Origin: Adineta ricciae
Lineage: Eukaryota > Rotifera > Eurotatoria > Adinetida > Adinetidae
Length of the DNA: 64,000 nucleotides
Direction: 5' to 3'
Assembly (NCBI GenBank): GCA_905250025.1
Contig: CAJNOJ010000063.1
Span: forward strand, 327,210-391,209
Of the stretch, positions 5,068-55,244 are shown piece after piece. A model generated the notes under the pieces. That model was given only the letters and a program-made list of their open reading frames with translations. It searched no databases and was not told where the DNA came from. Position 1 is the first letter of the stretch. Each line of letters opens with the position of its first letter. Made by a program: the position numbers and the translations under genes.

Positions 5068-6186
5068 ATGTCCATGCGAACTCGTGCAAGAGATCTTGGT
5101 ATTCCTTTTAAAGGCACTCCAGGTGTGAATAACTCCATAACCGATGTTCAAGGTGTTGAAGTTGGACATCGAACACTAATAGGAAATTCATCTACTGATC
5201 AAAAATCAATTCGTACAGGAGTGACAGTTATTCTTCCAAGAGGAAAAAATATTTCAGGAAATATTGAAAATAAGAAGCTCTTTGGAGGATGGTATTCATT
5301 GAATGGAAATGGCGAGATGACAGGTACAACATGGCTTGATGAATCGGGTCTTCTTGCTCCATTAATTGCAATAACCAATACACATAGTGTCGGAACAATT
5401 CGTGATGCTGCTATTCAATGGTTTATTCAACAATCAACTGAAGCTAATCTTTCGGAGGGAGATTACAGTTCGTTAAGTTTACCAGTTGTTGCTGAAACAT
5501 GGGATGGATTTCTTAACGATATTAATGGATTTCATGTTAAAGCAGAGCATCTTTTCGAAGCTATTCAATCAGCAAGTTCTGATGTCATTCTAGAAGGAAA
5601 TGTTGGCGGTGGAACAGGAATGATTACACATAAATTTAAAGGTGGAATTGGAACATCATCACGCATACATGACCAATATACAGTTGGTGTTCTTGTTCAA
5701 TCAAATTATGGAGTTCGAAATCAATTAACTATCGCAGGAATTCCTGTTGGTGAAATAATGTCCAATGAATTGTTACCAATACGTCAACAAGGATCGAAGA
5801 AGAGTGGTGAAGTTGGCTCAATTATTGTTATCGTAGCTACAGACGCACCTCTTCTGCCACATCAATTGAAACGCCTTGCTCGTCGCGTACCGATTGGAAT
5901 TGGACTTGTCGGAGGACGTGGTGGTAACGGTTCAGGAGATATTTTTCTCGCATTTTCAACCGCGAATCAACAAATCATGGGTAAAGAGAAAGGTGTTGTA
6001 CAGGTTGATATGTTACCAAATGAAGAAATGGATAGTTTGTTTGAATGTGTTGTACAAGCAACAGAGGAGGCAATTCTTAATGCAATGATTGCTGCCGAAA
6101 CAATGGAAGGAGTTTATGGAAATAAAATCTATGCAATTCCACACGATAGAATAAGAGAACTTTTGAAAAAATTTAATAAATTATGA
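5068..6186 (+). CDS. P1-family (S58/DmpA) L-aminopeptidase / D-esterase-like autoprocessing hydrolase, intronless
   Basis: 372 residues in one exon, almost the length of bacterial DmpA (375). Family members are N-terminal nucleophile hydrolases that cut themselves once and then release N-terminal or beta-amino residues from short peptides. The expected self-cleavage site, Gly-Ser within EVGSIIV, lies at residues 250-251, matching Gly249-Ser250 of DmpA. Other landmarks are the N-terminal GVNNSITDVQGVEVGH, EGNVGGGTGM (176-185), SNYGVRNQL (212-220) and the GGNGSGDIFLAFST block (286-299), whose Ser289 and Asp291 sit where DmpA and BapA have Ser288 and Glu290. There is no signal peptide, so it is probably cytosolic. 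Two ATGs lie close together (5068, 5074). A polyadenylation signal follows at 6225-6230. The absence of introns between intron-rich neighbours, and the mainly bacterial and fungal spread of the family, suggest horizontal acquisition. The frame is intact. Confidence 0.9.
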   Translation: MSMRTRARDLGIPFKGTPGVNNSITDVQGVEVGHRTLIGNSSTDQKSIRTGVTVILPRGKNISGNIENKKLFGGWYSLNGNGEMTGTTWLDESGLLAPLIAITNTHSVGTIRDAAIQWFIQQSTEANLSEGDYSSLSLPVVAETWDGFLNDINGFHVKAEHLFEAIQSASSDVILEGNVGGGTGMITHKFKGGIGTSSRIHDQYTVGVLVQSNYGVRNQLTIAGIPVGEIMSNELLPIRQQGSKKSGEVGSIIVIVATDAPLLPHQLKRLARRVPIGIGLVGGRGGNGSGDIFLAFSTANQQIMGKEKGVVQVDMLPNEEMDSLFECVVQATEEAILNAMIAAETMEGVYGNKIYAIPHDRIRELLKKFNKL

Positions 6187-6725: not shown

Positions 6726-8160
6726 TTATTGACTTCTTCTCTCTCCAATACTTGGCATTGCACCTTCATTTTGCAAACAACTATTCTTAAATAAAGACGA
6801 ATCCATCATTTGATATTCGGGTTCACTTGTTGATTCCCATTTGCACAGATTTGAATCAACCGATTGAATTTCATTATTTGCACCTTGTCTTACTATCCAA
6901 GCACCTTTACGTGCTAAACCTTGAGCAATCATACCGAATGTTGATTTCGATGTTGTGATTAAATATTTCATTTTAGATAAAATAAGTAATTCTGCTAATG
7001 TATATTGCATCTTTTCAATCGCATTCGTTGTGTGTGACATGTCGAATGGATTAAGAATTTCAATAGATGTATTTTGATAAATATTCAAAATTTGATTGAT
7101 TAGATTTTGTCGACGTTGACGAGTATTCGATATAATATATAGATAAATTTTCACTTCATTATTAAATCTATAAAATAAACGAAACATTATTTGCGTCACG
7201 CATGGATTCGAAGTATTTTACTTTGTGAGATTTTCTATAACATTTTCAATACATTTTTGAAAAGGTTCGATATGTTCAACTATATGCGATGACCAACTAC
7301 GCATATGAACACCAATTGTGATATTTCTGGTCGGAAAATTGTGTTTCTTTTCGAATTCTTGAATAATTAAGTTGACTTTTGGTATTGGTTGTAAAACTCT
7401 TTTGGCCAATTCACTGAAGATTTGTCCATTGTGAAAAAGGTTTTGAAAACTTTCTCTCAATCTTTCATTTCGTGTTAATATCGGAACAAAAATATTGAGC
7501 AGTTCGAATCCATTGCATATGATCAGTAAAAATATTTATCAAATAGAATCCAAATCGTTGAAACCATGAACGAATATCAACAATTTTATCATCACATAAC
7601 ATTATTTCGTCAAAGTAAAAAGCCCAATCTCGTGGTATTCGACTGTTACTGTTTATTTGCCAATGAATTTCATTGATCCATCGATTCTTAACCAAACTCA
7701 TCAATCGCGAAAGGGAATATTGATGAACGAAACTACTTTCATTTAATGATGATGATGATGATAATGGTAAAAAAAGATCTTCAAAATTTGCATCATGATT
7801 ATCACCAGGTTTCCAATTGATGAGAAGAACTCGATTTGTGACGAGAGCATAAGTGAGAGAAGATATTAACCCAAGAATGCGATTACCTAAACCATTGACA
7901 GCATCAAATACAACATAATTTGCATGCGAAGATGAAGATTTAAGAATACAAGTTCGGTACAATAGGTAGGAATTCAATAATAATGTTATGTTACATGTTT
8001 CGGTTGATAAAGCACATTTTTCGAAGGAATTACTTTCATAAAGATGCAAACATGAAGATGAAATAAAGAATTGATTACGAAAAATATAAAGAAAATAGAT
8101 AATTATCAATAAAACAAGAATAATATTGATCTTTTTCTGTTTGAATTTCAATAACTTCAT
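6726..8160 (-). CDS. GT37-like (plant xyloglucan-type) alpha-fucosyltransferase, type II membrane protein; one apparent frameshift
   Basis: The N-terminus is Lys-rich followed by a hydrophobic anchor (residues 11-27), typical of a Golgi type II glycosyltransferase. The block NGLGNRILGLISSLTYAL (about 89-106) matches the GDP-fucose family GT37 motif seen in plant xyloglucan fucosyltransferases. A second block has IGVHMRSW, and the C-terminal block reads STFGMIAQGLARKGAWIV. One intron of about 50 bp is clear near 7165-7225 (ACAAA|GTAAAA ... TATAG). In the T-run complementary to 7488-7492, reading on requires a one-base frame change: the first part ends WIRTAQYF and continues with VPILTRNERL. 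This may be a homopolymer sequence error or a real lesion; no intron fits. A decayed second copy lies at 10408-10765. Acceptor sugar unknown. Family match is strong, function is inferred. Confidence 0.75.
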
Positions 8161-8560
8161 AAACTAATTGTTAAACGACTTTTCTTCCAGCGGACAAAAT
8201 TCTTCTCATGTTCATTTTAATACGAAAATCACAAGAGGTTTTCTTTGTCAATTGAGATGTAATATAGTGAGTATCATATAAAACATCACAAAGAAAATGA
8301 TTGAAGAAAAAAACCTACAATCATATACAATAAAAACAGATTCAGATAAAAGTTAAGTAAAATGATGTCGCTATGTGAGGTAAAACTAAAAGAAACACAA
8401 CTTCTGTATTTTAAACTTCCTACAGGATGCGCTCGATACGACTGATGAAACGTATCTAGAAAAGTTTGTATAGCCTTTTTATTTTTTTCAATCAACGACA
8501 CAAAGAATGGGGATTAAAATGACTTTTTCAACTTTATTATGTCTGTGTCGATGGTCTTGT

Positions 8561-34581: not shown

Positions 34582-36479
34582 CTTTTGATCCCCGTAACAA
34601 CCACGAATTATAACAAAAGATCTGAAAAGTCCCTCGTTTAAATGAATTCAATTGGTTTCACTATACAGATAAAATAAATAAGAATAAAAATATCATATTG
34701 TTTCAAATGAGAACATTTGTTGGAATTGACAACATGGACCAATACAATTTTTACATTAATCATCTTTATTGATTCAGCAAATCCTTTTCAAATAAATTTT
34801 TTTTGTACAGAAGAACAATTCTTTCAAGTTCATATCGACATGAAATGTGTAAAATAATATCTTATAGATGTCGCCATATTTCATCAGCATAAATTAATAA
34901 AGTATCTATTATCGATAGCATAGAATCCAATTCCTAATGAAAGTGTAATATCGGTATGTAACAACAGATTAGTCATGTCCGACCTAGATCTTAGAATTGC
35001 ATCAAATATTGTGATATAATATAGCTGGAAGTATAATACAGATCAAATTTATAACAAAAATGATTGAAATTTCGCCGGCGGAATCCAATGAAAACCGGTC
35101 ATGTAGAATCTTATTGAATTTTGAGTTTGGGTTTCAGGGTAGTGTAAAACTGAAAGCTTAACGTTTCAGGCCAAAGTTCGAATGATCTATAGACGCATTA
35201 TGCTGGCGTAATTATGGAGTAAGATAATGCAGAAGCATGATTTATTCTACATGAATGGTAGCTAGGTACTTTCGCATCATACATTTAATTTTTCATTTCA
35301 AATAGATGGGTTTTGAAGATATTTTTTCAGATTTTTGCGCCTTCTCATCCAAGTATTCTTTTCAAATTACCACTCAGATGATGATAATCCTCAGATTGTA
35401 ATGAATGAAATAGTCATTGTCCTTCGAAACGCAATTCTTCCACTGCGAATTTTCCTACACACTATTGAAAAGGATTGAAATAATATTTATTCACTAACAA
35501 AATAATCATCACGGTTTTGAACTCGACAATTGTCCATTTCAATAGGAAATAAACGATTCATGAAGAAAGTTGAATTACTCCAAATCAGAACTAGAATAAA
35601 TACAGCTAATCGAAAGATAATCATTGGCCGAAAAGAGAAGCCTAATAATAAGATGTATGTGCAAACAAAGAGATGCGAGGTCGTTTCAAATGTACTGAGC
35701 CAAATGCGCAAATCCAACAATGACGGCGACTATCTGACATAATTCAACAAGGTTCTTGGTGATGGATTTACGTCGGATTCCATCGGAAAAATTTTAATAT
35801 TCTACTGCAAATTTGATGAGCGTTATTTTCAGCCACATATATTGTATTATAGCCTTACGCGTCTATCGGATCCGGAAGCGACAGAATCTTATATAATTTT
35901 GTCCGGTTCGATAGAATTTTACGAATTTTCATCCGCTACAAAAATAGCACGAAGTAAAAATCAAATTAAATCGTCATCTGTGTTACCTAAAGATAATGAG
36001 CGAATACGAGATGAGGTTATGTCATTGAAATGCATGCAAAATAGACAACAAGAAACACTTACAAAAAGAAGTAGTGATTTCTTTCTTTCTTCATTATTGT
36101 ATATTTCTTCATTTACAGACAGTTTTATGTTTGTATCCGACTCAGTTTGATTCAAAATTGCGAACTCATGTTGGCAAAATTACGATCCTACATCAGCTAG
36201 TACACTATATACGTATTTAGAGCGCTTTTGAAAGTGTATTAGAATATAGTTCAGCTTCGGCTAATCTATATCTTCAGTTCTGTGTATTAAATTTTCTAGC
36301 AAAGATGAGCTTTTAATCAGTTAAATTGACATTAGTGGGAAAAGTAATCTTTTTATTGACGCACATAATGCGTCAAAGGATAACGGGAATATTTTTTATT
36401 AACTATTTCTATTCTTATAATTTAATAAGTGTTTTATTACTACCAAGAAGAACCTTCACTTCTTTTCAACTCATTTCAG
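34582..36479. other. Divergent spacer between COPG and the GPCR (left copy), with a coding-like relic
   Basis: Between about 35530 and 36140 the plus strand carries interrupted protein-like sequence (MKKVELLQIRTRINTANRK..., then RLSDPEATESYIILSG and ARSKNQIKSSSVLPKDNERI). The same is found, in a slightly different state, at about 39960-40473 in the right copy. Family unknown; it may be a decayed gene. The rest is AT-rich. Confidence 0.4.
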
Positions 36480-37015
36480 ATGGATCCATATATCTATCGT
36501 TTGTCTCGTTTTATTATTTTATTTATTTTTGCAATACCATCACTCATCTGTTTCCTTCTTATCTTTTTTTTTCTATTCAAAAATGGAGAAATCAATCACA
36601 AGCGCTTGCAGAATCATATCATTGTTGTATTTCTCTTTTGTAATTTCTTTCTTGTTACTACTGAATTACCTATTACATTAATTTATTCTTATGAAGGTTA
36701 CGTTTTACCTCAGATTGAACAATTCTGTTCGTTTTGGGTAGCACATAATTATGGATTATATTGTGTTGGTTTAATGCTTATGGCTTTTGGATCGATTGAA
36801 AGATACTTTCTAATTTTTCATGAAAGATTAATGCATCGATGGCGTTTCATTGTTCATTATCCTGGTATATTTATATGTTTTATTTATCCACCTTTATTTT
36901 ATCATTTGGTCGTTAATTTTTATCCATGTGAAAATAACTATGATTATGAATATTATGTTTGTGGAGGAGCTTGTTATCAATTCGAACATGTTATCAGTAT
37001 TATTGATTATCTTCT
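36480..37015 (+). CDS. Rhodopsin-like GPCR, left copy, truncated at the N
   Basis: Same receptor as at 40882-41877, here reading from MDPYIYRLSRFII to ISIIDYL, that is up to the beginning of span 5. It is then cut by the N at 37016. There is no stop codon or decay before the cut, so the truncation belongs to the assembly join and not to the gene. A splice acceptor (CATTTCAG) directly touches the ATG. Confidence 0.8.
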
Positions 37016-37016
37016 N

Positions 37017-38961
37017 AGCTTCTTTTGCTTCAGGATTTTCTTCAACAATTGAAATGATTGTATTGACAATTGCTTTCTTATATTCGTATCCACCCTCTTC
37101 ACGTAACATATTGGCAAGAAACGTCATCAATACTGTATGTTTACGTGGAAACTTTTGACATAATGATCTAAATTGATTAAATACCATCATTACCATGTAA
37201 ATCAATCCTTATCCATTTCATACTTAATGGCATCGACGACCACCGTTTTGAATTGATCGGAGATTTCAGATAAAAATGATGAGATTTGTTTCATCAACCG
37301 ATCAACACCTGCTTCATTACCAGTCTATAACGGATACAAGCGATGTAATCAATTTATGATGGAGAAAATGACATATTTACTTTGAGGAGTGTTGTTATAG
37401 CCAGTGTTGCAATTGATCGATTCGAATCGGTGATTAATGTTTCAAGATCAACATTGCAGGCTGTGACTGCTGCTGGATATTGAATAGCAACCTATTTTGA
37501 GAAAAACAAGTTTATTTTCGTTCGCTGTCTCGTCGAATCTTCTTGTAACAAACTTTGTTGAGTGTTCGAACAGCAGCATAACGTAAAACCGGTTTTGGTG
37601 ATGAAATAAATAATTGAAGAACATTAACAGCTGAACTAAGTTCTTTTGGTGTCACACATTTGAGCGAAACAATTGTTGATGCTGCTTCGTAGATAACCAT
37701 TTCATTTTTATGACGTAGACATGAATCAATGAAATCGTACATTGGACTATCCGTTCTAAAAGTCAAACGAAGAAAGAATTGATTCGACACATTTCGGCCT
37801 TTAAAAGACAAAAACTTTCTACTAACCCTTCGCCTTCTTCATTGATCAAACTAGCTGCTATGCGAATGAGAAAACAATACGCGTATGGGCTTCGAAGGCC
37901 AGCCTTGGAAAATTTCACAATCAATTTTCTGATCGCATGTTTGTCCGATCGACGTATTTGATAGAGAAGACCAAGCGCATGATATTGGACCATGATATTA
38001 TCGTTATTAACTGCTTCTTGGACTTCATTTACCCATCGTTTCACTACTTCAGGACCTTGACGCATCAAATGAACGGATGACACCAATGCTGCCGACGCAA
38101 CCGACGGAAGTTTATCAACAATTGCTTGTTTCATATATCGTTCAACACTTTGCATCATCGATGCCTATAGATTTAAATGAATGGATTACGATTTCGAAAA
38201 GAAAATCTCAATGCGTACATCGGTGATTTTACATAAAGCACGTATGGCCGGTCCACGGTGTGAATCTTCTTTACCGGTCATATCACGAGTTAAACTTGAT
38301 GTTACAATGATAACATCATTGGCAACCGTTGACATTTCCTTGATCGATAGATAAATCATTCGACGAAGCATCATCTAAATGTAGAATAGAATAAAACGAG
38401 TTGCTTTACTTTCTCGGTAAAATTTACATCTTTTGATTGAAATAATTTTGTCATAGCAAAAAATGTTTCGGTTGCTTCAGTTTGACCCAATTGTTCACCC
38501 TAAAGTAAAGGACAAATTAGTTGTGCATATCTAAGCAGTCATGACAAATAAATCGAAAATAATAAGACCAAATGGATCCCTCAACAGAGAAAAAAATTAT
38601 GCTGCTATTCATCACCATTCAACAGAAAAAGAAACACAGAGACTCTTTTTTACCATTTCTGGCTATAATAGTAATGATAGAAGATGATTCTGTAAATCTA
38701 ACATGAGTACAAGAGTATTTTCTTACTTGATTAATCATATAAATGATCTTCGTTAGAATCTGAACACATTTTCGTGTGTTTACAGGTGTCTCATTGAATG
38801 TTCGAGCCTATTGGGTACAGAAATTATATTTTTTAGAATGATAATGAAAGACTTCAGTTTACTTCTTGGAGGACAGAAGCTTTTTCGAGATTCTTGTATG
38901 GATTTCCACTTGTACTTGATTCTTCATCCTTTTTATCTTGTTTCCGGAATGACGAAAGCAT
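37017..38961 (-). CDS. COPG: Coatomer gamma, right copy, 3' (C-terminal) half missing at the N
   Basis: Starts with the same ATG context (MLSSF... at 38961) and contains the same first exons and intron positions as the left copy. Between 37512 and 38374 the exons match with few substitutions (for example [12 protein letters not shown] versus [12 protein letters not shown], an intronic stretch). It runs leftwards into the exon [20 protein letters not shown] and breaks at the N. The appendage domain is absent only because of the join. Frames are intact. Confidence 0.85.
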
Positions 38962-40881
38962 CTTTTGATCTCCTTAACAACCACGAATTATAACAAAAGA
39001 TCTGAAAAGTCCCTCGTTTGAATGAATTCAATTGATTTCAGTATACAGATAAAATAAATAAGAATAAAAATATCATATTGTTTCAAATGAGAACATTTGT
39101 TGGAATTGACAACATGGACCAATACAATTTTTACATTAATCATCTTTATTTATTCAGCAAATCTTTTTCAAATAAAATTTCTTTTGTACAGACGAACAAT
39201 TCTCTCAAGTTCATATCGATATGAAATGTGTAAAATAATATCTTATAGATGTCGCCATATTCCATCAGCATAAATTAATAAAGTATATAAGCATGAATCC
39301 AATTCCTCATGAAAGTGTAATATCGGTATGTAACTACGGGTTAGTCATAGCCAAACTATATCTAAGAAGTGCGTCAAATACTATGATATTATATAGCTGG
39401 AAGTATAATACTAATCAAATTTGTAACAAAAATGATTGAAATTTCGCCGGCGGAATCTAATTGAATTTTGAGTTTCAGGGTAGTATAAAGCTGAAAGCTT
39501 AACGTTTCAGACCAAAGTTCGAACGCACTATAGACACATTACGCCGGCGTAGTTATGGAGTAAGTTAATGCAGAAGCGTGATTTATCCTACATGAACGAT
39601 ATAATATTATTCAATCTTTTGAATCATTCAGCAGTAAAAGAGAATCAACGTATCACATACGTACTTTCGCACTATACATCTAATTTCTCATTTCAAATAG
39701 ATGTGTTTGGAAGATATTTCTTCAGATTTTGACGGCTTTTCATCCAAGTATTCTTTTCAAATTACCAGTCAGATGATGATAATCCTCAGGTTGCAATGAA
39801 TGAAATAGTCATTGACCTCCGAAAAGTAATTCTTCCATTGCAAAGCTCATGTTTTCTACACACTCTTGAAAAGAATTGAAATAATATTTATTCACTAACA
39901 AAATAATCATTACGATTTTGAACTCAATAATTGCCTATTTCAGTAGGCAATAAGAAGTTCATGAAGAAAGTTGAATTACTCTAACTCAGAACTAGAATAA
40001 ATATAGATAATCTATAGATAATCATTGGTCGAAAAGAAAAGTCTAATAATAAGATATGTGTGCAAACAAAGAGATGCGAGATCGCTTCAAATGTACTTAT
40101 CCAAGTGGACAAATCCAATAATGACGACGACTATCTGACATAATTCAAAAAGATGCCTGGTGATGGATTTACGTCGGATTCCCTCGGAAAAATTTTAATA
40201 TTCCACTCCAAATATGAGCGCTATTTTCAGCCATATATATTGTATTAGAGCCTTGTGCGTCTGTTGGATCCGAAAGCAACAAAATCATATATAATTTTGT
40301 CCGTCTCGACAGAATTCTACGACTTTTCATTTGCTACAAAAATAGCACGAAGTAAAAATCAAATTAAATCGTCATCTATGTTACCTAAAGATAATGAGCG
40401 AATACGAGATGAGGTCGTGTCATTGAAATGTACGCAAGATAGACAACAAGAAACACTTACAAAAAAGAAATAGTGATTTCTTTCTTTCTTCATTATTGTA
40501 TATTCCTTCATTTACAAACAGTTTTATGTTTGTATCTGACTCAGTTTGATTCAAAACTGCGAACTCATGTTGACTATTAAAATTGGAATCCCGCATCAGC
40601 TAGTACACTGTATACATATTTAGGGCACGCTTGAAAGCATATTAAAGTATAGTTCAGCTTCCGCTAATCTTTATCTTCAATTTTGTGTATTAAATTTTCA
40701 AGCAAAGACGAGCTTTTAATCAGTTACATAGATGTTAGTGGAAAAAGTAATCTTTTCATTGACACACATAATACGTCGAAGGATAACAGGGCATATTTTA
40801 TTAACTATTTCTATTCTTATAATTCAATAAGCGTTTCATTACTACCAAGAAGAATATTCATTTCTGTTCAACTCATTTCAG
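38962..40881. other. Divergent spacer (right copy)
   Basis: Counterpart of 34582-36479. Carries the same coding-like relic at about 39960-40473 (RLLDPKATKSYIILSV, ARSKNQIKSSSMLPKDNERI) with its own interruptions. An insertion of about 60 bp near 39594-39650 is not in the left copy. Confidence 0.4.
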
Positions 40882-41877
40882 ATGGATCCATATATCTATC
40901 GTTTGACTCGTTTTATTATTTTATTTGTTTGTGCAATACCATCCCTAATCTGTTTCCTTCTTATCTTTTTTTTTCTATTCAAAAATGGAGAAATCAATCA
41001 CAAGCGTTTGCAGAATCATGTCATTGTTGTGTTTCTCTTTTGTAATTTCTTTCTTGTTACTACTGAGTTACCTATTACATTAATTTATTCTTATGAAGGT
41101 TACGTTCTACCTCAGTTTGAACGCTTTTGTTCGTTTTGGGTAGCACATAATTATGCATTATATTGTGTTGGTTTGTTGCTTATGGCTTTTGGATCAATTG
41201 AAAGATACTTTCTAATTTTCCATGAAAGATCAATGTATCAATGGCGTTTCATTGTTCATTATCCTGGTATATTTATATGTTTTATTTATCCACCTTTATT
41301 TTATCATTTGGTCGTTAATTTTTATCCATGTGAAAATAACTATGATTATGAATATTATGTTTGTGGAGGAGCTTGTTATCAATTCGAACATGTTATCAGT
41401 ATTATTGATTATCTTCTAAATGTCGCCTCTCCTACTATTATAATCGTATTAGCAAATATGATTCTTCTTTATCGTGTAATCAATCAAAAACGAGCAATGA
41501 AATTAGCGAATACTTGGCAAAAAAACCAATTGATGTATGTTCAACTAGTATCGATTTCAGTATTATATTTAATTATCTGGATACCATTTGTTATTATTTC
41601 ACTAATTCGCTTATTTTATGATCCATTTTTTTTACAAGATGTGATTTTATTAATTATAAACTACTGTTTATATATCATTCCACTAGTTTCACCATTTAGT
41701 TGTCTTATTGGTTTACCAAAAGTACGATATCAATTGCGAAGAAGACATTGGCATTCATTGTGGGCACATAGTATTAATCATAATCGAATCGGACCAGCAA
41801 GAACTATGGATGTTGTTCGAACTAGACAGCAACATATTTTGCCAAGTCGACAACTAGAAAATGAACATATATGTTAA
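40882..41877 (+). CDS. Divergent rhodopsin-like (class A) GPCR, orphan
   Basis: 331 residues in one coding exon. Seven hydrophobic spans are visible: about 9-33, 44-69, 84-108, 124-146, 172-198, 217-243 and 252-278. Span 3 ends in ERY (107-109), the counterpart of DRY. Cys83 and a Cys in the second outer loop (C161 or C165) can form the usual disulphide. Span 6 has LIIWIPF. Span 7 lacks a canonical NPxxY and reads PLVSPFSCLIGLPKVRY. The tail is basic, 50 residues, without a cysteine cluster. Such short, divergent class-A receptors are numerous in rotifers; ligand unknown. An acceptor CATTTCAG abuts the ATG, so the 5' UTR is spliced or a leader is added. Confidence 0.85.
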   Translation: MDPYIYRLTRFIILFVCAIPSLICFLLIFFFLFKNGEINHKRLQNHVIVVFLFCNFFLVTTELPITLIYSYEGYVLPQFERFCSFWVAHNYALYCVGLLLMAFGSIERYFLIFHERSMYQWRFIVHYPGIFICFIYPPLFYHLVVNFYPCENNYDYEYYVCGGACYQFEHVISIIDYLLNVASPTIIIVLANMILLYRVINQKRAMKLANTWQKNQLMYVQLVSISVLYLIIWIPFVIISLIRLFYDPFFLQDVILLIINYCLYIIPLVSPFSCLIGLPKVRYQLRRRHWHSLWAHSINHNRIGPARTMDVVRTRQQHILPSRQLENEHIC

Positions 41878-52973: not shown

Positions 52974-53804
52974 CTAATGAATCGATCGAATGAACTGAAC
53001 GATATTTTCAATCATATGAATTTGTTCTTGTTCATTCGTAACACTATGATCAGACTGTTCTAATAAAACAAACTTCGAATTATTTTTCGTCGCTAATTTA
53101 TCTTTGACAAAACTTTCAGCTTCTTCTCGGATCTGATCAGGAACGTATTCATCTTTTCGCGACCATATCCACATGTTTGGAACATCAATCTGTTGATAAA
53201 TCTTCGATAGTTGTTCATCGGACAGATCACTTGAAAAAAGATCTTCAATGGAATTGATTTGATTCAATGATAAACATCGTTCAATTGTTATTGGTGGATC
53301 ATGGAGACATCTGGGTAACCATTCATGAATATTTTCTCGATTTTGTTCACAATATTCCAATTGTTTTTGTGTTGAAGAAAGCGTTGAAAGGTATTGTCGA
53401 TCACTAACTGGTCCTTGAAGAATAATTCCATGAAGAAATGAATGTTTATTTCCTTGTCGCAAATAATGAATAATATCTTGACAACCCGTTGAATGGCCCA
53501 TTAGTATAATTGATTCTAAATTTGTTCGTTGCTTAATTAAAAAATCAATTAAACTTTGAAGATCTTCGATATCATGATCAATTGTATGCCAACCATACTG
53601 AAGATTCGATGAACGAAACAATGGTTGAATCAATGAATATGACAATTGCGAAAGACATTGGTTAAGACGTGAGATGTATGGTAGAGATAGGAGACCATCT
53701 GTAAGACCACCAAGAAATATAAAACACCGTGATGATAAGCGTAGGCTAGATTCAAATGCAACTAGTTTATATTTTTCATCATAAATAAACAGATTTCCAT
53801 GCAT
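52974..53804 (-). CDS. DUF1749-type alpha/beta hydrolase, intronless
   Basis: 276 residues in one exon. The family start is visible (FIFLGGLTDGLLSLPYISRL), followed by LQYGWHTIDHDIEDLQSLID and the nucleophile elbow ILMGHSTGCQDIIHYL (Ser105). Likely acid Asp218 (WIWSRKDEYVP) and base His253 (EQSDHSVTNE) complete a triad. This pattern, including the GLTDGL oxyanion region and GHSTGCQD, is that of DUF1749 proteins known chiefly from fungi, plants and algae. Substrate is not established; esterase-like chemistry is inferred from the fold. There is no signal peptide. Lack of introns and family distribution make a horizontally acquired gene plausible. Start ATG at 53804 fits the family N-terminus. 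Confidence 0.85.
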   Translation of the reverse strand: MHGNLFIYDEKYKLVAFESSLRLSSRCFIFLGGLTDGLLSLPYISRLNQCLSQLSYSLIQPLFRSSNLQYGWHTIDHDIEDLQSLIDFLIKQRTNLESIILMGHSTGCQDIIHYLRQGNKHSFLHGIILQGPVSDRQYLSTLSSTQKQLEYCEQNRENIHEWLPRCLHDPPITIERCLSLNQINSIEDLFSSDLSDEQLSKIYQQIDVPNMWIWSRKDEYVPDQIREEAESFVKDKLATKNNSKFVLLEQSDHSVTNEQEQIHMIENIVQFIRSIH

Positions 53805-54398
53805 CTACAATATTAATAAGAAATAAAAAAATAATGATTATTGTAATCTGATCTGATTCTGCAAAATAATTTGATTTATTGATTGACAAGCAGCTCCCTC
53901 TTTAAGTTCATCTTATTTTTTGGATGATGTTCAAAAGGGAAGAAGAGGGCGAAAAGTTCTTCCTCCCTTTCTTTCACTATCGTCTGCAAATCATACGAGA
54001 CACGGACTAACCGATTTTTTTTATTCGCTCGTTCTTCTACTTGTATGTCGTTTCTTTTCCTAGGTCACTTCACTTGAATCGATTATTCGTCTCTCTTTCT
54101 CTCTGCAAGTACCAGTAAATAATGATAAGAACATTTCGAAAGAGAAAGAATGAAAGAAATTGTCTGTTTCAATTAATGTTTATTCTTCGCTTTTTTACGC
54201 AAATATCGAAGAGGAGAAATTAAAACTGAAGGCATTGCATAAAGAAAAACAATATAGTAAGTGAGGGTATCTGGTACAAAAGAATGAGAAGAATCTATTT
54301 GTTTAGTCATTCTGCGTGAAAAGTCCACAGAGTAAAACGGGTTTTTTTTCAGTACAACATTTTCTTTTTATTTTAGATCATTTCATAACTAATTCACT
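53805..54398. other. Spacer between divergent genes
   Basis: Promoters of the hydrolase (-) and coiled-coil gene (+) must lie here. CT-rich tracts occur near 54090. An acceptor-like TTTATTTTAG lies at 54367-54376, 22 bp before the coiled-coil gene's ATG. Confidence 0.5.
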
Positions 54399-55244
54399 AT
54401 GTCAGGTATCATCAAAGCTATTTTTGGTCATCATAAAGATGAAGATGAGAAAAAACATCATCAAAATACAACTGAAACAGTTGCAACTGTTGGGACAGCG
54501 TCTGGTTCATCCATAGCTCACACGGCTATTAGCGAAGATGTTCGTGTCCAATCTGTGGTCTCAACCGAAACAAATACAAGTGTTAGTGTGCAAAATTCAA
54601 AGAAAATTGCCGATCTTATGAACAAACTAGGCACAACACATCATCAAATCGACGAATATTCAAAAAAACGTACAGCTGAAATTAGCGAAGCAGTTTCCGA
54701 TGCAATTAATAAAGTTGTTGCTGATACAGCTGCACAACAACATAAATTGTTATCCGATGCCAATGAACGTTCAGTCGCAATTGAAAACGAATACAAAGTC
54801 CGTTTACAAGAACGTATTGTTCAACTCGATAATGAAAAAGCGATTTTATTAGCTGAGTTAGAACGGGCGTTAAATGAACGTCAAGAAGCGATTTTGCTCA
54901 AAGCAAGACAAGAAATTGATATGGTACAAGATGCTGCCAATCGAGAAAAAATGGCCGTTTTCAAAGAAGCACAAGCAAGAGCGAATCAACAAGTCGATCA
55001 AATTACTGAACAAGTTGCTGAACTTGCTGCTGAAGATGCACAACGGCGTCTGCAATCGACAACTCAAACCGTAATTCAAATAAAAGAATGTTTTTGTCAC
55101 ATAAATTTTCTTTTCTTTCTTTGTTAGGTTATTACAACAAAAGCTGTTGCATCAGGCGAGACGCACACTCAAGGTGCACATGTTACAACTACAACAACAT
55201 CACGAAAATCTTCCGAATCTCATCATTCATCAATTAGCAATTAA
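54399..55244 (+). CDS. Highly charged coiled-coil protein, candidate stress/desiccation-type protein
   Basis: 262 residues, two exons (54399-55070, 55128-55244; intron 57 bp). The N-terminus MSGIIKAIFGHHKDEDEKKHH pairs a short amphipathic helix with a His/Asp/Lys-rich stretch. A Ser/Thr/Val-rich linker follows, then a long continuous helix of about 150 residues rich in Ala, Glu, Gln, Lys and Arg (ISEAVSDAINKVVADTAAQQ, KVRLQERIVQLDNEKAILLA, NREKMAVFKEAQARANQQVD). The tail is Thr/Ser/His-rich (THTQGAHVTTTTTSRKSS). There are no Cys or Trp residues and no globular core. The layout resembles LEA and tardigrade CAHS proteins, that is soluble, disordered helices forming gels or shields on drying. 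That is analogy, not proven homology; a plain structural coiled coil is the alternative. Confidence 0.7.

Follow-up and report, generated by a model that had tools for sequence, protein, structure and literature searches.

What kind of protein is encoded at positions 54399 to 55244 of the window (the whole 64,000-nucleotide stretch of DNA analyzed here), and would it serve its host in drying, as a sequence-only reading had proposed from what looked like the architecture of CAHS and LEA proteins? The locus is a real two-exon gene. In the spliced model, the coding region extends from the ATG at 54399 to the stop codon at 55244 and is interrupted by one intron (Table 1), and the product has 262 amino acids (aa) with 0 Cys and 0 Trp, in agreement with the earlier remark that both residues are lacking. 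The ATG frame spans 242 aa, compared to longest frames of 87 to 140 aa per shuffle in 10 mononucleotide shuffles of the whole window. The splice model is supported by a paralog, L020, that carries its intron at the same residue and in the same phase (after aa 224, phase 0). Just 5' of the ATG, at 54366-54377, the sequence TTTTATTTTAG was noted by eye; it is a possible acceptor, either of a 5' untranslated region intron or for trans-splicing.

TABLE 1 Features of the gene and its predicted protein, in window positions
Feature	Positions	Strand	Basis
Exon 1, ATG to aa 224	54399..55070	+	Open frame and spliced model
Intron, 57 bases, GT..AG (GTAATT..TAG), phase 0, after aa 224	55071..55127	+	Same site as the L020 intron
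Exon 2, last 38 aa (VITTKAVASGETH.. tail) and stop TAA	55128..55244	+	Tail motif also present in paralogs
N-terminal MSGIIKAIFG, short hydrophobic start	54399..54428	+	Alignment by eye
aa 40-64, conserved segment (AHTAISEDVRVQSVVSTETNTSVSV)	54516..54590	+	Family alignment
aa 65-212, hendecad amphipathic rod, 148 residues	54591..55034	+	Peak at 97.5-98.0 degrees in 12/12 members
aa 53-223, one uninterrupted predicted helix	54555..55067	+	AlphaFold2, single sequence

AlphaFold2, run on exon 1 alone with no alignment, predicted a single long helix (mean pLDDT of 81, pTM of 0.40), with block pLDDT values of 92 to 98 over aa 71-210; together with a hydrophobic periodicity above that of all 500 shuffled sequences, this bears out the long uninterrupted amphipathic helix that had been read from the sequence. 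The ends had been described as charged and flexible. Low pLDDT agrees with flexibility (48 of the first 56 residues are below 50, and a short helix at aa 5-9 was predicted with low confidence), but it is the helix that is charged, with a charged-residue fraction of 0.32 versus 0.20 for aa 1-64 and 0.16 for aa 213-262. No signal peptide was seen by eye, and the hydrophobic start follows a form, M-x-x-[IV]-I-x-[AK]-[LI]-x-G, that was found by eye, in the family alignment, in 5 of the 12 readable members described below (e.g., MSAIINALFG). The conserved segment ahead of the rod contains Ser52, which is invariant in all 12 members, and has weak beta propensity. In the window protein, the tail is Thr/Ser-rich and beta-prone (P of 0.005), as is the N-terminal part (P of 0.032); across the family, the tail is more beta-prone than the whole protein at a P value of <0.05 in five members and not significantly so in seven, and the N-terminal part reaches this level in just three.

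The hydrophobic residues of the rod recur with a period of 98.0 degrees and a power of 13.6, a value reached by none of the 500 shuffles, and the power at the heptad angle of 102.9 degrees is 1.0. In every one of the 12 members, the peak lies at 97.5 or 98.0 degrees, with powers of 8.5 to 14.6 at 98.18 degrees versus 0.1 to 1.6 at 102.86 degrees, and periodicity of the heptad or intermediate-filament type (102.9 degrees) was found in none of them. The helix period is thus that of an 11-residue hendecad with little heptad signal, and the rod is not a heptad coiled coil; the description as a coiled-coil protein stands for the long helix and fails in the classical heptad sense. Among 10 other open reading frames (ORFs), drawn from a list of 22 for the window, the best 148-residue stretches peaked at 82 to 120.5 degrees; only a Kelch ORF came near the angle of the rod (99.0 degrees, power of 5.7), and one TPR protein had a power of 11.0, but at 110 degrees. 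Rod length is nearly constant (145 to 149 residues in the 12 members), column entropy is 0.99 bits at hydrophobic positions compared to 1.63 bits at the rest, and seven polar residues are invariant in the alignment (H81, Q83, D85, T110, Q114, K147, and K184). Lys and Arg keep to no single phase through both rod halves, the phase drifting slightly, in a count that had no LEA control.

Protein searches of the host's own 130-Mb assembly found at least 16 loci of this family, of which 12 are readable and 4 are broken or partial. The alignment comprises the 12 members with full or nearly full readings, several of their starts having been picked by eye from translated frames, and leaves out L014 (in-frame stop), L021 (fragment), and L026 and L027 (decayed). 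Identity to the window protein ranges from 24 to 58%. At least two members share an intron, in the same phase, at each of window residues 78, 98, 185, and 224, and the dN/dS ratio is 0.15 to 0.29 in five of seven tested pairs, which were our own choice out of 66; the other two, L015-L018 and L019-L020, are saturated and gave no dS. The family members are constrained protein genes. A maximum-likelihood tree, with stars on 3 of its 9 inner branches, leaves the window gene unplaced. Two members, L015 and L018, were aligned without their upstream exon, which is joined to the rod via a short intron at the same place in both (by eye) and begins MGSSSSCSKKK in L015 (contig C101) and MGSAACRPK in L018 (C72). 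These starts resemble sites of N-myristoylation and palmitoylation, and because of them, membrane anchoring rather than a free cytoplasmic gel is suggested for these two proteins.

Several further features of the family loci were observed. Three imperfect repeats of a unit like NVTLSSSAIDSIMAKA make up part of the tail of L017 (C124) and were not seen by eye in other members. L026 (C168) and L027 (C175) are two similar decayed copies with stops. Three copies lie within ~70 kb on contig C57 (C57:199862, C57:211960, and C57:269661), one of them readable (L011), one broken, and one a fragment; over the core, L011 shares 98% identity with L010 on contig C88, where the family locus is at C88:319187.

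The expectation that no named family would fit holds for Pfam, NCBIfam, and PDB sequences. In Pfam, the window protein matched no family at cut-off (best, DUF3597, E value of 0.011), and neither did five paralogs for which scores were printed; for the other six members, best E values only were obtained. One of the matches, of L016 to DUF6279 (E value of 1.3e-4, 22.4 bits, below the cut-off of 27.7), was judged to reflect helix composition and was rejected. Among the prokaryotic families of NCBIfam, 1 of 12 members matches DivIVA_Wag31 (E value of 0.0066, cut-off not printed). Searches of PDB sequences gave nothing significant, either with the window protein (best chain, Cwc15, E value of 0.016) or with the family profile (best, RNA polymerase II RPB1, E value of 0.024). 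Short peptide patterns found no relative in two scans of prokaryote contigs and one of viral contigs, and a literature search with four short family peptides gave no match. One finding named beforehand as refuting a role in drying, a clear match to a structural coiled-coil family, was not made at significance in Pfam or PDB sequences.

For comparison with CAHS proteins, we used one sequence, that of CAHS D (CAHS-8, P0CU50) of a eutardigrade, taken from PMC11524581. PMC10949331 describes the linker of CAHS D as an amphipathic helix flanked by ends in which beta structure is transient; the protein is reported to bundle via the helix, with beta-beta contacts joining the ends. According to PMC3429414, the CAHS helix carries two 19-mer motifs. 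In the window protein, too, the ends look flexible and beta-prone, and a long amphipathic helix lies between them. The two proteins are of comparable length (262 and 227 aa) and share the order of a flexible N-terminal part, a long 11/3 helix, and a less helix-prone or beta-prone tail that contains, by eye, a stretch rich in Gly, Thr, His, and Val. They also share the amphipathic period: residues 94-195 of CAHS D peak at 98.0 degrees (power of 9.3, reached by 0 of 500 shuffles), with little heptad signal in either protein. Alikeness of build, period, and tail would be expected if the family were a true homolog of tardigrade CAHS and hence the missing outgroup of the CAHS family. We give this next to no probability: an hhalign comparison of the family alignment (12 members) with CAHS D returned a probability of 0.7% over 17 columns, which indicates no sequence kinship as far as this one CAHS sequence goes, and by eye, nothing in the window protein corresponds to the N-terminal part of CAHS D. 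In PMC10799326, CAHS proteins are reported from Eutardigrada only and the gene family nearest to them is stated to be unknown; the host here is a bdelloid rotifer. In the texts searched, no paper combined three of the four subjects CAHS, hendecads, tardigrades, and undecapeptides.

Membership among the LEA proteins fared no better. The likeness to group 3 LEA proteins (LEA_4, PF02987) consists in the 11-residue amphipathic hydrophobic periodicity, present in all 12 members, and its period of 98 degrees would suit a protectant that is little folded in water and gains an 11/3 helix on drying, on membranes or clients. We consider this improbable. LEA repeats vary, and the invariant residues and near-constant length of the rod are unlike that. 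The profile search proposed by the sequence-only reading, against CAHS and LEA families, came back empty on this side too, LEA_4 being absent from the matches of all 12 members at E values of up to 0.1, and no near-identical repeated 11-mers were seen by eye. Of the 12 members, 3 match the apolipoprotein A1/A4/E family (PF01442) weakly (best E value of 0.0058, or 0.0012 when L015 is read together with its upstream exon), which speaks for such a protectant, apolipoproteins A1, A4, and E being 11-mer amphipathic helices; the one member with a printed score, however, reaches 19 bits where the cut-off is 90, and no signal peptide was seen by eye. The hydrophobic order within the 11-mer (two neighbors, +3, and +4; by eye) resembles, up to a shift, that of the group 3 LEA 11-mer as given in PMC3429414, but the identical order is found in any hendecad. 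LEA_4 was found nowhere in the host's own genome, a weak result since the control genomes gave none either and LEA genes are reported in Adineta vaga in PMC10809525. CAHS or LEA membership is not supported by sequence comparison; the likeness to CAHS is one of build.

ATP synthase subunit b is a hendecad right-handed coiled coil, and its weak matches to the family profile in the PDB (E values of 0.36 to 0.73, not significant) are expected, because the hendecad is common to both; the family differs in having no membrane helix, and RPB1 scored better in the same search.

In composition, the rod departs from the linker of CAHS D, which is shorter (~100 versus 148 residues), more highly charged (0.54 versus 0.32), and less rich in aliphatic and aromatic residues (18% versus 26%). 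A stably folded, bundling rod is favored because the window rod is less charged and more aliphatic and has invariant polar residues. These features, together with near-constant length, are as compatible with a constitutive structural rod as with protection in the dry state, or more so. Such a protein would be a constitutive part of a permanent lattice, either cytoskeletal or submembrane, present wet or dry, with paralogs specialized by cell type; the intracytoplasmic lamina of the rotifer epidermis is an example of a lattice of this kind. We treat it as a serious possibility, though less likely than not. Consistent with it are the confident prediction of the helix from a single sequence and the acylation-like starts of two of the 12 members, L015 and L018 (MGSSSSC and MGSAAC). 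Against it stand the lack of a significant structural coiled-coil match in Pfam and PDB sequences, the flexible Thr/Ser-rich tail, which is unexpected in a rigid lattice protein, and a literature search that found no data on lamina composition in the texts it covered. By fold, Foldseek returned a single match in the PDB (E value of 9.6), a comparison of no use for a lone helix.

The sequence-only reading tied the need for such proteins to the host being a bdelloid, an animal that survives drying. Two N6_N4 methyltransferase matches occur in the genome, one each on contigs C2 and C5, and the N4CMT-type methyltransferase on C2 runs in frame into a chromodomain (first 32 of 53 positions). According to PMC8885841, the methyltransferase occurs in each major bdelloid family and is absent from monogononts and other sequenced eukaryotes, and sequenced bdelloids have a chromodomain at its end. 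The fusion therefore identifies the host as a bdelloid, as had been guessed. A search of the genome with a spliced-leader sequence gave 0 matches, which counts against either a bdelloid or the query sequence, and TGTGGG arrays were found, for which the control was the same repeat in another phase; neither result was used for host identity.

Nothing found in the genes themselves pointed to a role in drying. The 700 bases that precede the window gene contain no heat-shock element, and a perfect three-unit element occurs in 1 of 12 upstream stretches, that of another member; the stretches scanned for L015 and L018 are not true promoters. The words TGATAAGA/TCTTATCA occur in 4 of 9 upstream stretches versus a fraction of 0.025 in background pieces, uncorrected for multiple testing. 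Against a poor reference set (two EF1A pieces and an actin-related protein), codon usage did not clearly show the bias of an abundant protein. The absent heat-shock element suits the permanent rod, and with the lack of clear codon bias, it weakens the case for a gel or filament scaffold. Many drying-response genes of Adineta vaga have no known function, as stated in PMC10809525.

Other genes of the window were noted in passing. An open frame at 5071-6183 (+) matches almost the whole profile of Peptidase_S58 (E value of 2.5e-111), a mainly bacterial family, and is a possible case of horizontal transfer. A reading frame at 7468-8163 (-) has a partial match (E value of 4.8e-10) to xyloglucan fucosyltransferase, a family known from plants. 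Two nearly identical frames ~4 kb apart, at 36429-37052 and 40831-41877 (+), are likely a tandem duplication; the second encodes a G protein-coupled receptor, and the first runs into an undetermined base near its end. The rod gene is adjoined on the opposite strand by a DUF1749 alpha/beta hydrolase gene at 52974-53804 (-; E value of 5.4e-57).

The reading that we tentatively put first, at somewhat less than an even chance, is that of hendecad rods that bundle into a gel or filament scaffold, as proposed for CAHS D; CAHS-like assembly of the family is plausible. Each protein would be one hendecad helix of ~150 to 170 residues, roughly 22 to 26 nm long, with a flexible N-terminal part and, in the window protein, a Thr/Ser-rich tail. 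The hydrophobic stripe of the 11/3 helix would allow side-by-side bundling, and the ends may link the bundles to one another or to membranes, so that the rods would assemble, in the cytoplasm or beneath a membrane, into a scaffold of filaments or gel and stiffen the cell. In a bdelloid host, drying would be the likeliest single occasion for such a scaffold. The patchy beta propensity across the family, significant in 5 of 12 tails and 3 of 12 N-terminal parts, weakens this reading as well, and we rate service in drying and a permanent scaffold as almost alike in probability. More speculatively, bdelloids may possess a family of hendecad proteins, convergent with CAHS, whose gels or filaments set up the drying cytoplasm, with some members tied to membranes by acylation; this we find possible but rather doubtful.

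If it is true, the tardigrade solution would have arisen a second time, in a different animal phylum and from a different ancestor. A bdelloid family of CAHS build but without CAHS sequence would allow a direct test of whether an 11/3 helix with sticky ends suffices for gelling and protection, irrespective of sequence. If the proteins are structural rods instead, they would constitute a structural family of animals undescribed in the libraries searched, with 12 readable genes in one genome.
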